Origin: Candidatus Magasanikiibacteriota bacterium
GTDB taxonomy: Bacteria; Patescibacteriota; Patescibacteriia; Magasanikbacterales; UBA922
Assembly: GCA_016182415.1 (NCBI GenBank)
Contig: JACPGR010000097.1
Coordinates: 1 to 44,914, forward strand
Reading direction: 5' to 3'
DNA length: 44,914 bases
The translations under genes were made by a program, and so were the position numbers. Below the pieces are notes generated by a model. It was not told the DNA's origin and did no database searches. It saw only the letters and a program-made list of their open reading frames with translations. This document shows, in pieces, positions 28,075 through 32,815 of this stretch; position 1 is the first letter of the stretch, and the number at the start of each line of letters is the position of its first letter.

Positions 28075-28485
28075 ATGGAACTCCCACCAGGTACTATTAT
28101 CGCAGTCGGACCCATCATTATCGAAGATGGCAAAGTCCTACTCAACCGCGAGATAAAAAATGACGGAACTGAAAGCCCTATTTTTATGTTACCTGGCGGT
28201 ACTGTGGAAAATATGGACTCCACACTCGAGGAAGAGTGTTATCGTGAAGCAATGGAGGAAATGGGTATGACGATTGAAATCATCAAACCGCTTCGAACCA
28301 TGTTGGTCAAAAGACCCGGCAAAGAAACATACGCAATTTTAGTTCACTATCTTGCGCGACGGACGTCTGAAATCAACCCCGGTCAAGAGACGCTTGAGTG
28401 GGGTTGGTATGATATTGATAATTTGCCTAAAAATTGTGCACCAAATATTGCGCAGATTATTGATGATGTAAAGAAAGAATTATGA
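28075..28485 (+). CDS. Nudix hydrolase
   Basis: 136 residues. The Nudix box GGTVENMDSTLEEECYREAMEEMG is intact (with one residue more than the shortest consensus before the Glu helix). The N-terminus MELPPGTIIAVGPIIIEDGKVLLN and the LVHYLARRTSEINPGQETLEWGWYDIDNLP end match small NUDT-type housecleaning enzymes. The stop overlaps the start of the repeat protein gene by four bases (ATGA), so the two are translationally coupled. Confidence 0.87.
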   Translation: MELPPGTIIAVGPIIIEDGKVLLNREIKNDGTESPIFMLPGGTVENMDSTLEEECYREAMEEMGMTIEIIKPLRTMLVKRPGKETYAILVHYLARRTSEINPGQETLEWGWYDIDNLPKNCAPNIAQIIDDVKKEL

Positions 28486-30092
28486 TCGAATGTGAAAAAA
28501 GCCATGAGGAACTAGAAGCTTACCGACTTAAACTTCAAGAAGAAGTCAAAAATCTTTTTGGATCGGAGAGTACTGTACCTATGCAAGATATTGTACATAT
28601 ACTCGGGGCAAAAGAATTTCTTACCATTGATACAAAAAGAAAAGTCCTCACTTTTGACGCAAAAAGGTATGTAGATTCACTCGTAAAAAGACTGCGCAAC
28701 GAAGGTCTAAAGTTGCAATTACCAAAAAAAGTTGAGATCGAGCCCGAGGTTGTGTTCCCTCCTGGAGAAGGTGAGATAAAAACAGGCAGTGAAGCAGGAA
28801 TTGAAAAGAAAAAAGAATTTCAGAGAAACGCATTATTAATTGAACTTCTGAGCGAGAATCAAATTCCTTATGAGACACCACGCATCAGTAAAACCACGCC
28901 GGATATGATGCGAGGTGAAGGATACACGGTCTATTTTCTTCCCACTCTTCAAAAAACAGTCTGTGTAAATAATGAAGAGGGAAATACAACAATAATCCTT
29001 TTTGACACTCAGTCTTATGACGACGCAAAAAAAATATTTGGCATCTACACAAAGAAACAATTGAGGACTGACTACAATGGTCTCGCCGTATGTATCGATT
29101 GGAAAAATGAATTTATACAGAACCCGAAATTGTGGAAAGTTGAAATTCTTAATGTGTTACAAAGTGAACCTCTCTCAAAAAAAATGGGCTCAACAGACAA
29201 AGAAATAATGACGAGACGTAGAACTATCGAGACTGCACAATCAGAACTAGAGGAAGCTTATATAAAATGGTTAAACAGTCAAAACCAGAAGAACAAAAGG
29301 TTTAATATAAGGTGGCTTCAGAAAAATGGATATAATGCACTAGAAAAATGGATAAGAAGAAATGAAGGTTTAGATGCGCTCGTCAGAAGATGTCCACCTG
29401 AATTACAAGAAGCCTTTGAAAAACGAGACCATACATCTGGAAGAACAACCGAAAATGCTCAGGCGGAACTTGAGCAAGCATTTGAACAATGGCTAAAACA
29501 GCCCGTGAAAGGACATAAAAAATTTAACACCGTGTGGCTACTAAAAAATGGATATGGCGGGCTATACGAATGGACAAGAAGCAATGAAAGTTTAGATGTG
29601 CTCGTCAGAAGATGTCCATCTGAATTACAAGAAGCCTTTGAAAAACGGATCTATACTTTCGAAAGTGCTCAGGCGGAACTTGAGCAAGCATTTGAACAAT
29701 GGCTAGAACAGCCCGTGAAAGGACATAAAAAATTTAACACCGTGTGGCTACTAAAAAATGGATATGGTGGGCTATACGAATGGACAAGAAGCAATGAAAG
29801 TTTAGATGCGCTCGTCAGAAGATGTCCGCCTGTATTACAAGAAGCCTTTGAAAAACGAGATCATACATCTGGAAGAACAACCGAAAGTGCTCAGGCGGAA
29901 CTTGAGCAAGCATTTGAACAATGGCTAGAACAGCCCGTGAAAGGACATAAAAAATTTAACACCGTGTGGCTACTAAAAAATGGATATGGCGGGCTATACG
30001 AATGGACAAGAAAAAATAAAAATTTGGACACCTTAGTCCAAAAATGCTCACAAGGATTACAAGTTGCATTTAATAAATTCAAGAAAAAATAA
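28482..30092 (+). CDS. Protein with four near-identical 70-74-residue repeats, function unknown
   Basis: 536 residues. Residues 1-245 are a mixed alpha/beta region with LGAKEFLTIDTKRKVL and a part around 115-230 (RNALLIELLSENQIPYETPR, YTVYFLPTLQKTVCVNN, IILFDTQSYDDAKKIFGIYT) that I do not recognise. From about 248 to the end there are four repeats, with AQ(S/A)ELE starting at residues 252, 326, 396 and 470. Each runs AQAELEQAFEQWLxQPVKGHKKFNTVWLLKNGYGGLYEWTRxNESLDALVRRCPxELQEAFEK, with conserved Trp and Leu; repeats 2-4 are almost identical at DNA level, repeat 1 diverged. This looks like a helical solenoid, possibly binding nucleic acid or protein. No transmembrane segment. Start codon overlaps the Nudix stop. 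Confidence 0.7.
   Translation: MIECEKSHEELEAYRLKLQEEVKNLFGSESTVPMQDIVHILGAKEFLTIDTKRKVLTFDAKRYVDSLVKRLRNEGLKLQLPKKVEIEPEVVFPPGEGEIKTGSEAGIEKKKEFQRNALLIELLSENQIPYETPRISKTTPDMMRGEGYTVYFLPTLQKTVCVNNEEGNTTIILFDTQSYDDAKKIFGIYTKKQLRTDYNGLAVCIDWKNEFIQNPKLWKVEILNVLQSEPLSKKMGSTDKEIMTRRRTIETAQSELEEAYIKWLNSQNQKNKRFNIRWLQKNGYNALEKWIRRNEGLDALVRRCPPELQEAFEKRDHTSGRTTENAQAELEQAFEQWLKQPVKGHKKFNTVWLLKNGYGGLYEWTRSNESLDVLVRRCPSELQEAFEKRIYTFESAQAELEQAFEQWLEQPVKGHKKFNTVWLLKNGYGGLYEWTRSNESLDALVRRCPPVLQEAFEKRDHTSGRTTESAQAELEQAFEQWLEQPVKGHKKFNTVWLLKNGYGGLYEWTRKNKNLDTLVQKCSQGLQVAFNKFKKK
29235..30089 (+). repeat. Coding tandem repeats, 4 copies of about 210-222 bp
   Basis: Units start at about 29235, 29457, 29667 and 29889 (periods 222, 210 and 222). 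Long stretches such as 29500-29590 and 29710-29800 and 29930-30010 are identical, including synonymous positions, which points to recent duplication or gene conversion rather than old selection alone. Confidence 0.9.
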
Positions 30093-30190
30093 AATTATGA
30101 TCCATGAATCACTCGAACACAAATAACTAAAATACTTGTCTAAAACATGAAGTTTTTTAACATATCCGTAAATCATGTATTTTCAATTTT

Positions 30191-31465
30191 ATGCAAAAAC
30201 TACAAACCCAAGACCCCGATATTTACAATCTCATCCAAAAAGAAGTCGCTCGACAATCGCAGGGTCTTGAAATGATCCCCTCAGAAAATCATACCTCCCA
30301 AGCAGTACTCGACGCGCTTGGCTCACGTTTGACTGACAAATATTCTGAAGGCTACCCTGGTATGCGATATTATGGTGGCTGTGAACATGCAGACGCAGTA
30401 GAAAATCTTGCTAGAGACCGCGCAAAAGAATTATTTGGGTGTAGTTTTGCCAATGTCCAACCACATTCAGGATGCCCTGCAAACATCGCGGTCTATGTCG
30501 CACTACTCAAGCCCGGCGATACACTCATGGGTCTCAAACTTTTTCATGGTGGTCACATGACACATGGACTCAAAGTAAATTTTTCGGGGGTCTTTTTCAA
30601 TAGTGTTCAGTATGGCTGTAATGAAGAAGGCTTTATTGATCTAGATGAAATGAGACGACTTGCACATGAACACAAACCAAAATTGATTGTGACAGGTGGC
30701 AGTGCATATGCCAGAACATACGAGTGGGCAAAATACAAAGAAATTGCGGATGAAGTAGGCGCCTTTTTGCTTGCAGATATGAGTCATGTCGCAGGACTGG
30801 TCGCAGGCGGAGTACACCCATCCCCCATTGGCATTGCCGACGTCGTCACGACCACCACACACAAGACCCTGCGAGGCCCTCGTGGTGCGATGATCCTCGC
30901 AAATGGTAATCCAAGTACCCCTCTGCAAAGTGTCGAGCATACAAAGGAAAATATCCCGACCTTAATCGACCGTGCAATTATCCCCGGAATCCAAGGTGGT
31001 CCGCACAATCACCAGACAGCTGCTATTGCCGTCGCACTCAAAGAGGCAATGCAACCAGAGTTCAAAATATATGCACGACAAATAGTGACCAATGCAAAAA
31101 TTCTTGCAGATGAACTCATGTCTCGCGGATATAATCTCGTTACGGGTGGAACTGAAACGCACTTGATGCTCATCAACTTGGGAAATAAAGATATTACCGG
31201 CAAACAAGCAGAAAGTGCGCTTGGCAAAGCAGGAATTACGGTCAATAAAAATACCGTTCCCCATGACCCACGCAAACCATTTGATCCATCGGGTATTCGT
31301 CTGGGAACACCGGCATTAACAACTCGAGGTATGAAAGAAGATGAAATGAAACGCATTGCCGGTTTCATTGATCGCGCACTTGGAAATATTGATAACGAAG
31401 ATGAATTGACTAAAATTCACATAGAAGTCACAGAAATGTGTGAATCGTTTCCATTACCCAATTAA
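30191..31465 (+). CDS. glyA: Serine hydroxymethyltransferase
   Basis: PLP enzyme that converts serine and tetrahydrofolate to glycine and methylene-tetrahydrofolate. The 424-residue product has [19 protein letters not shown], the [14 protein letters not shown] segment, the cofactor lysine in [12 protein letters not shown] (Lys225), and [16 protein letters not shown], all standard. Length is normal (about 410-420). The start at 30191 follows 98 bases of spacer with no promoter I would defend. The IS element left end is 28 bases past its stop. Confidence 0.96.
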
Positions 31466-31536: not shown

Positions 31537-31595
31537 AAATCTTGTATCATAGAGACTATATTATTCACATAATTCAGTCTCTATGGTACAAGATT
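31537..31595. promoter_or_regulatory. Hairpin covering the transposase start codon
   Basis: The 20 bases 31537-31556 (AATCTTGTATCATAGAGACT) are mirrored with one mismatch at 31576-31595, which includes the ATG at 31583-31585. RNA read from outside through the IS would fold the start codon into this stem, while a transcript starting inside the loop would not. This is a known strategy of several IS families to block activation by neighbouring promoters; that it works so here is inferred. Confidence 0.7.
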
Positions 31596-32815
31596 TAAAC
31601 GGTCATTACAAATTATTACTCGGTTTGTCTGAACCGTGGAAGATTGAAACGGTTGATCTCTCAATTGTTTCGTCTGAGGTTACTATTACAATCGCGTATC
31701 CAAAAGGTGTTACGGTGGCGTGTCCCGGATGTGGGACGCATACAAGTATCTATGATTATCGAAAAAATCGCTCATGGAGACATTTAGACACGATGCAGTT
31801 TAAGACAATCATCACCTGTGCGACTCCACGTTCAAATTGTGATACCTGTGGTATTAAGACCATTTCCGTACCCTGGGCTACCAAAGGCTCCGGTTTTACC
31901 CTTTTATTTGAGTATGTTGCTATTTCTGTAATTAAACATACCAGTTCAATCACCGCAGCAACCAAACTATTAGGTCTCAATTGGCATCAAATTCAATCCA
32001 TCATGGCTCGAGCTGTCGTACGAGGTCTTGAGAAACGTGATGCTACCAATACAATTGAATACATCGGTATTGATGAAAAGAGTTTCTTAAAAAATCATAC
32101 GTATATATCCAATTTATATGATTTAGACAATGGACGTGTCTTAGATGTCGTGGAAGGTAGGAAAAAAGAACATGCACGAGCACTACTCAACACCATAGAA
32201 CCGGAACTACGAGGAGAAATTAAAGCAGTGGCTATGGACATGTGGAAAGCATTTATGTCTGCCAGCAGTGAAATTCTCCCCCACGCGCTTATTGTGCATG
32301 ATAAATATCATATCAAAAGCTATCTCACAAAAGCAGTGGATACGGCACGTAAACGAGAACATACATTATTGCTCCGGAACGGAACACACATCTTAACTCA
32401 CACAAAATACCTGTGGTTAAAAAACAAACAAAACTGGACAGAACAAGAAACAATCAAATTTAAAGAACTGAAATCCACCACATTGAAGGTCTCAAGAGCA
32501 TGGGCTATCAAAGAAGCCTTCGGTCAATTCTGGACATATCTTTATCCAAAATCAGCGGAAAAATTCTTTACAAAATGGTACTTCTGGGCAACACATTCAA
32601 GAATTCCATCAATAATTAACGTGGCAAAATTACTTAAACGACATACACCGGGACTACTTGCATACATAATTCACCGAATAACTAACGCCGTGGGAGAGGG
32701 ACTCAATTCAAAGATTCAAAATTTAAAAGCAAACGCCAGAGGATTTAGAAACTTTAATAACTACAGAACAACAATTTTATTCTTTTGTGGAAAGTTAGAG
32801 CTTTACCCACAATAA
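31583..32815 (+). CDS. tnp: ISL3-family transposase
   Basis: 410 residues with the ISL3 order: an N-terminal zinc ribbon (CPGCGTHTSIYDYRKNRSWRHLD...CDTCG), helix-turn-helix around LGLNWHQIQSIM, then a DDE catalytic domain with YIGIDEKSFLKNHTYISNL (first Asp), AVAMDMWKAFMSASSE (second Asp) and GEGLNSKIQNLKANARGFRNF (Glu). The reading frame is unbroken, so the enzyme could be active. The start ATG lies in a 20-base hairpin arm. Its stop is 13 bases before the right end of the element. Confidence 0.93.
   Translation: MVQDLNGHYKLLLGLSEPWKIETVDLSIVSSEVTITIAYPKGVTVACPGCGTHTSIYDYRKNRSWRHLDTMQFKTIITCATPRSNCDTCGIKTISVPWATKGSGFTLLFEYVAISVIKHTSSITAATKLLGLNWHQIQSIMARAVVRGLEKRDATNTIEYIGIDEKSFLKNHTYISNLYDLDNGRVLDVVEGRKKEHARALLNTIEPELRGEIKAVAMDMWKAFMSASSEILPHALIVHDKYHIKSYLTKAVDTARKREHTLLLRNGTHILTHTKYLWLKNKQNWTEQETIKFKELKSTTLKVSRAWAIKEAFGQFWTYLYPKSAEKFFTKWYFWATHSRIPSIINVAKLLKRHTPGLLAYIIHRITNAVGEGLNSKIQNLKANARGFRNFNNYRTTILFFCGKLELYPQ

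Follow-up and report, generated by a model that had tools for sequence, protein, structure and literature searches.

Proteins that bind DNA through tandem repeats are already known as a kind. In TAL effectors and TALE-like proteins, the repeats have a period of 33–35 aa and fold as two helices, and PPR proteins are likewise built of two-helix units of ~35 aa. The helicase-associated repeat HA (PF03457) and the integrase repeat unit INT_rpt (PF14882) are small tandem modules that occur on different heads. A 2024 screen of DNA-binding tandem repeat proteins, including STAR, MOON and pTERF, was limited to repeats of 15–35 aa that occur 6–40 times (PMC11417379).

Here we describe a repeat-array protein encoded in a 44,914-nt stretch of DNA (the window) from a Candidatus Magasanikiibacteriota bacterium, and compare it with these systems. 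Like the TAL effectors and TALE-like proteins, it has tandem units, near-identical DNA repeats, variation in array length among its relatives and a proposed DNA address. However, its units, which we call W-units, are 67–74 aa long (~75) with about five predicted helices, well outside the TALE period; no repeat-variable position pattern is apparent in the four-unit array, which has no sequence or fold match to TAL effectors. The W-unit also differs from PPR in period and helix count, and no PPR profile in Pfam matched the protein. The likeness by type to TAL effectors and PPR that was drawn in a first-pass annotation of this DNA therefore does not hold in structure. HA and INT_rpt, also small tandem modules, are both found in sibling proteins on the same N-terminal domain (N-domain) as the W-array, and HA sits on helicases, much as W-units occur on an SNF2 helicase. 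Nevertheless, neither the HA nor the INT_rpt profile matched the 536-aa protein or its single W-units, and the W-units are not detectably homologous to INT_rpt-like units. With the proteins of the 2024 screen the likeness would be that of tandem repeat DNA binders in general, many of which are still undescribed; W-type units fall outside that screen because of its limit to repeats of 15–35 aa (PMC11417379). No description of the N-domain or the W-unit was found in the libraries and literature searched.

A mosaic array in the C-terminal half

The gene (28482–30092, + strand) is an intact ORF and the only copy in its genome, a fragmented assembly of 1.11 Mb in 99 contigs, so that the number of array units is given as assembled. 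The C-terminal half of the protein consists of four units rich in Trp and Leu, of 74, 70, 74 and 67 aa, just as the first-pass annotation had described. All are on the + strand: W-unit 1 (aa 252–325, 29235–29456), W-unit 2 (aa 326–395, 29457–29666), which has a short linker, W-unit 3 (aa 396–469, 29667–29888) and W-unit 4 (aa 470–536, 29889–30089). Direct repeats of 300 nt (29295–29594 and 29727–30026) are 90% identical, which is not a matter of chance, and the repeat spacing in the array is 210 and 222 nt.

It had been claimed that three of the units are nearly identical, including at synonymous sites. This is the case for units 2 and 3, which have 94.4% identity over 66 codons with three synonymous differences, but the outer units share only one part with them. 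Sliding comparisons revealed that the first ~110 nt, or head, is practically identical among units 2, 3 and 4, beyond which unit 4 differs. In unit 1, the head is only ~40–70% identical to its counterparts in units 2 and 3, but the tail (beyond ~110 nt) almost matches theirs. Based on this mosaic of head and tail identities, the interior of the array is homogenised, and its two outer half-units, the unit 1 head and the unit 4 tail, are old, in agreement with the suggestion of recent expansion or conversion. The mosaic fits recent unequal crossing-over within a two-unit array as the probable copying process. In the simplest history, an old two-unit array, bounded by the present unit 1 head and unit 4 tail, would have gained hybrid units via unequal crossing-over inside a unit. 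Array turnover of this kind recurs but is not universal, as the units of a relative in the same order (L089) are likewise near-identical (90–96% at the nucleotide level), whereas another member (L093) has eight well-diverged units.

Near-identity of units can also arise in metagenome assembly, as short-read assemblies cope badly with near-repeats of 222 nt, and the contig of the relative L089 ends within its array. We consider such an artefact very unlikely to explain the array described here, as the frame is open through all units, the unit lengths are unequal (as the spacing indicates), the units have private differences, and independent relatives hold arrays of 2 to 8 units.

Insertion of the gene between Nudix and glyA

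The start of the repeat gene overlaps by four bases (ATGA) the ORF of a Nudix hydrolase (28075–28485, + strand; PF00293, E 3.9e-11), and the next gene downstream is glyA (serine hydroxymethyltransferase; 30191–31465, + strand; identified by eye from its sequence). An apparently intact ISL3-like transposase ORF of 410 aa (31583–32815, + strand), also named by eye, follows glyA directly, close to the repeat gene.

The four-base overlap had been noted in the first-pass annotation, which read it as a sign of a shared function with Nudix. The overlap does make co-transcription likely, and one other member (G010) also has a Nudix gene nearby, two genes downstream. To set against this, we have a survey of the family, in which 30 relatives encode this Nudix protein (E <= 1e-15). 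In 28 of these, Nudix immediately precedes glyA in the same orientation with no repeat gene between them, the gap being 14–988 bp (at most 286 bp in 24 relatives), and in the remaining two, Nudix and glyA fall on separate contigs. At the locus described here, the repeat gene occupies a gap of 1708 bp. Furthermore, the other member loci read have different neighbours, among them ordinary housekeeping genes (named by eye), only that of G010 having a Nudix gene nearby, and genomes of these species have 1–20 Nudix genes, with G010 at 20. A functional operon of the repeat gene with Nudix is thus highly improbable, and this reading is largely refuted; as the repeat gene was inserted between two old neighbours, its contact with Nudix is accidental.

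Two features of the boundaries bear on the insertion. A 10-bp direct repeat, AATTATGATC, is perfect at both of them (28478–28487, where it holds the ATG of the gene, and 30093–30102) and has no third occurrence in the window. On its own this repeat is suggestive, as 40 of 5000 random draws of 60-nt window pairs shared a word of at least 10. The displaced flank is firmer evidence. A short ORF, MI..SLE(F/H)(R/K)*, overlaps the Nudix stop in G032, G033 and G008 and lies slightly further on in G035. Its homologue here, the mini-ORF MIHESLEHK* (30097–30126, + strand), sits after the repeat gene, and represents the right flank of the former empty site, now displaced. From these comparisons of sequence, we judge that the repeat gene is a later single-gene insertion between Nudix and glyA. 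This putative ORF, of nine codons, overlaps or comes after the stop of Nudix in several relatives (L099, L100, L101 and L105).

Filled and empty sites were observed for other members as well. Within one genus, the rplI-pyrG site is filled in G038, G039 and G040 and empty in G037. In the same genus, the MBL-uvrB site is filled in G038 and empty in G036 and G037, and in G039 the gene is at a contig end. MBL-uvrB has the appearance of a hot spot for genes with repeat arrays. Split parts of this site in G040 hold two hypothetical proteins that are related to each other and begin with MPERQGY, in which no N-domain was recognised (L034 4503–6410 and L134 76–1866), and one of them has a C-terminal INT_rpt-like unit.

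These data raise the question of whether we are dealing with a selfish or mobile single-gene cassette, inserting between housekeeping genes, whose DNA-binding array serves its own mobility. The clean insertion with its 10-bp direct repeat, the two sites that are filled or empty within one genus, the patchy distribution of the family and the array types in common with integrases (INT_rpt) would be consistent with this. However, no recombinase, nuclease or transposase domain was detected, the rplI-pyrG and MBL-uvrB sites have no obvious direct repeat, the gene is single-copy in its host genome, and ordinary recombination, through gains and losses, would give the same picture. We therefore regard a mobile cassette as unlikely.

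One N-domain and many array types

The N-terminal part of the protein is a conserved N-domain (aa 1–235, 28482–29186, + strand; family profile E 3.7e-78). Its AlphaFold2 model is fair (pLDDT 79.9, pTM 0.80). In the model, residues 8–74 form a helical part with a small hairpin, which appears winged-helix-like by eye, and residues 110–229 an alpha/beta part in which R115, R144, Y148, N164, E165, N168 and T170 are conserved. The N-domain has no Pfam or NCBIfam assignment, sequence and profile searches detected no enzyme domain in it, and Foldseek searches with the model, including those of viral structures, returned nothing at E <= 0.001. The best structural resemblance of residues 110–229, a weak one, is to the C-terminal DNA-binding domain of T4 MotA (1kaf and 5jlt, Z 5.9 and 5.8), with 83–85 residues aligned (83/103) at an rmsd of 3.0–3.4 and a Z near background. 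The identity is only 13%, however, and the N-domain is acidic, as it is in most members. We treat MotA as a lead and make no assignment, because its Z is barely above those of the unrelated proteins MED17 (Z 5.4) and Spo0M (Z 5.2).

The N-domain occurs in 10 of 86 genomes from the order and 15 of 380 from the phylum (Patescibacteria), at loci labelled Candidatus Magasanikbacteria, Moranbacteria, Doudnabacteria and Patescibacteria group. No relatives were found by a single-protein scan of genome contigs, by a scan of viral contigs with the N-domain alignment or by tblastn against phages and plasmids.

Reading of the C-terminal parts of about 30 members revealed at least six array types on the N-domain: W-units, “PEGW” HTH-like repeats, wHTH, INT_rpt-like units, HA and further unnamed repeats, which were sorted by eye. 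HA was matched at 54.2 bits against a cut-off of 28.4 (PF03457, L085) and INT_rpt at 33.9 against 26.5 (PF14882, L045), and the long array at L082 matched many HTH families, a result that is inflated by repetition but coherent. The number of W-units per member is 2, 4, 6, 8 or at least 3. Members with different arrays co-occur in single genomes (G010, G040 and G084), and the N-domain tree mixes the array types, with 15 changes against a least possible 8. Strongly supported branches force at least two changes each for W and PEGW; the exact number is not claimed, as many branches of the tree are weak.

Several of these loci had further features. Two N-domain genes adjoin each other at L082 6561–11776 (G566), the larger of which, with 1038 aa, has the long, highly repetitive wHTH array. 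At L094 3615–8085, two tandem paralogues lie side by side; their N-domains are closely related, and their PEGW arrays differ in length. An INT_rpt-type member at L032 3047–4089 (G038) appears to be split into two ORFs, one with the N-domain and the other with an array fragment, perhaps owing to a broken copy or a sequencing error.

The W-unit and the proposed role of the array

A W-unit profile of 75 positions matched 39 units in ten proteins. The conserved core is A-x3-L-x2-AF-x2-W ... FN-x2-WL-x2-NGY-x2-L-x2-W ... L ... F, interspersed with variable positions, and the invariant or nearly invariant positions include three Trp as well as Phe, Leu and Asn. In agreement with the first-pass annotation, which proposed a modular helical repeat, the model of the four units is all-helical, with about five predicted helices per unit (mean pLDDT 77.6), although its pTM of 0.37 makes the geometry between units unreliable. 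The protein was also rightly called unrecognised, as the profile and structure searches proposed there gave no match to a known family. Single W-units gave nothing in Pfam below E 0.05 (best E 0.06–0.1), searches of PDB sequences and profiles found no relative, and Foldseek with the four-unit model gave no match at E <= 0.001. Homology of W-units to PEGW units was likewise not detected. Whole-protein Pfam matches (SPMAP1, EAD11, COA8, UPF0150, GH67N and others) vanish for single units, and we consider them repeat artefacts in which one weak chance match is multiplied. The same caution applies to PHROG matches such as “sigma factor” on the eight-unit relative. Models of defence proteins matched weakly and in the repeat region only (BrxB 1.5e-4, ZorA 0.004), where repetition inflates such matches.

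What, then, might the array bind? DNA, RNA and proteins had all been named as possible ligands. Judging by the arrays that take its place in sibling proteins, nucleic acid is the probable one. The siblings keep the N-domain and carry INT_rpt, HA, wHTH, HTH-like and other arrays, and for this reason we read the N-domain as the constant part and the array as the replaceable one. HA, INT_rpt and HTH are recognised nucleic-acid-associated modules, which makes DNA binding the best reading of the sequence comparisons. W-units also occur on a helicase: in G390, seven W-unit matches lie N-terminal to an SNF2 helicase with a methyltransferase domain. That protein has 1555 aa (L058 6802–11469), and its SNF2 helicase core resembles the ZorD, DpdE and DrmD models. 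Three weaker W-unit matches were found in a 589-aa protein of G188. Also counting for DNA binding are the all-helical model and the charge of the arrays: in 27 of 30 members, the N-domain is less basic than the array (pI 5.9 against 9.2 in the 536-aa protein). Against it weigh the lack of a fold or profile match to any known DNA-binding domain in structure and profile searches with the W-unit, the lack of detectable homology to PEGW or INT_rpt-like units, and the near neutral or acidic character of some W-arrays (pI 5.1–5.8 in the genus-g28 members and G057).

These last arrays, and the all-helical tandem units, would also suit a protein-binding helical scaffold, in which case the protein would be an adaptor whose arrays choose protein partners. 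The weak structural look-alikes of the W-unit model in Foldseek and VIA-align, which are TOG, PCI, annexin and 14-3-3 proteins, point the same way, but none of them reaches significance (Z no higher than 3.9, Foldseek E above 1). As HTH, HA and INT_rpt arrays take its place on the N-domain of siblings, and W-units are present on an SNF2 helicase, we find a scaffold rather unlikely.

Overall, we think it somewhat probable that the gene product is a modular DNA-binding protein whose array holds DNA and whose N-domain makes contact with some other component, a regulator being the simplest case. By analogy, we infer both the DNA binding of the W-array and the regulatory role. The protein would have two parts: the N-domain of ~235 aa would do the constant work, probably in regulation or in contacting proteins, and the tandem array of ~75-aa helical W-units would be the replaceable DNA-addressing part, most likely gripping double-stranded DNA at several points. 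Unit variation had been suggested as a means of changing specificity. The helix pair FNTVWLLKNGYGGLYEWTR, which would be the likeliest reading surface, is identical in units 2–4; other members vary at several exposed-looking positions. More tentatively, the family may represent a platform of the Patescibacteria in which one effector domain is combined with at least six exchangeable types of DNA-reading array, is carried in single-gene cassettes between housekeeping genes and has its addresses resized by recombination between units.

The Patescibacteria genomes examined document that single genes are gained and lost cleanly while the genes on either side are conserved. A constant head with swappable arrays leads directly to questions about the job of the head and unit-by-unit sequence reading. 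If the arrays bind DNA, they would be an unexplored source of modular ~75-aa DNA-binding units, in organisms with genomes of ~1 Mb.
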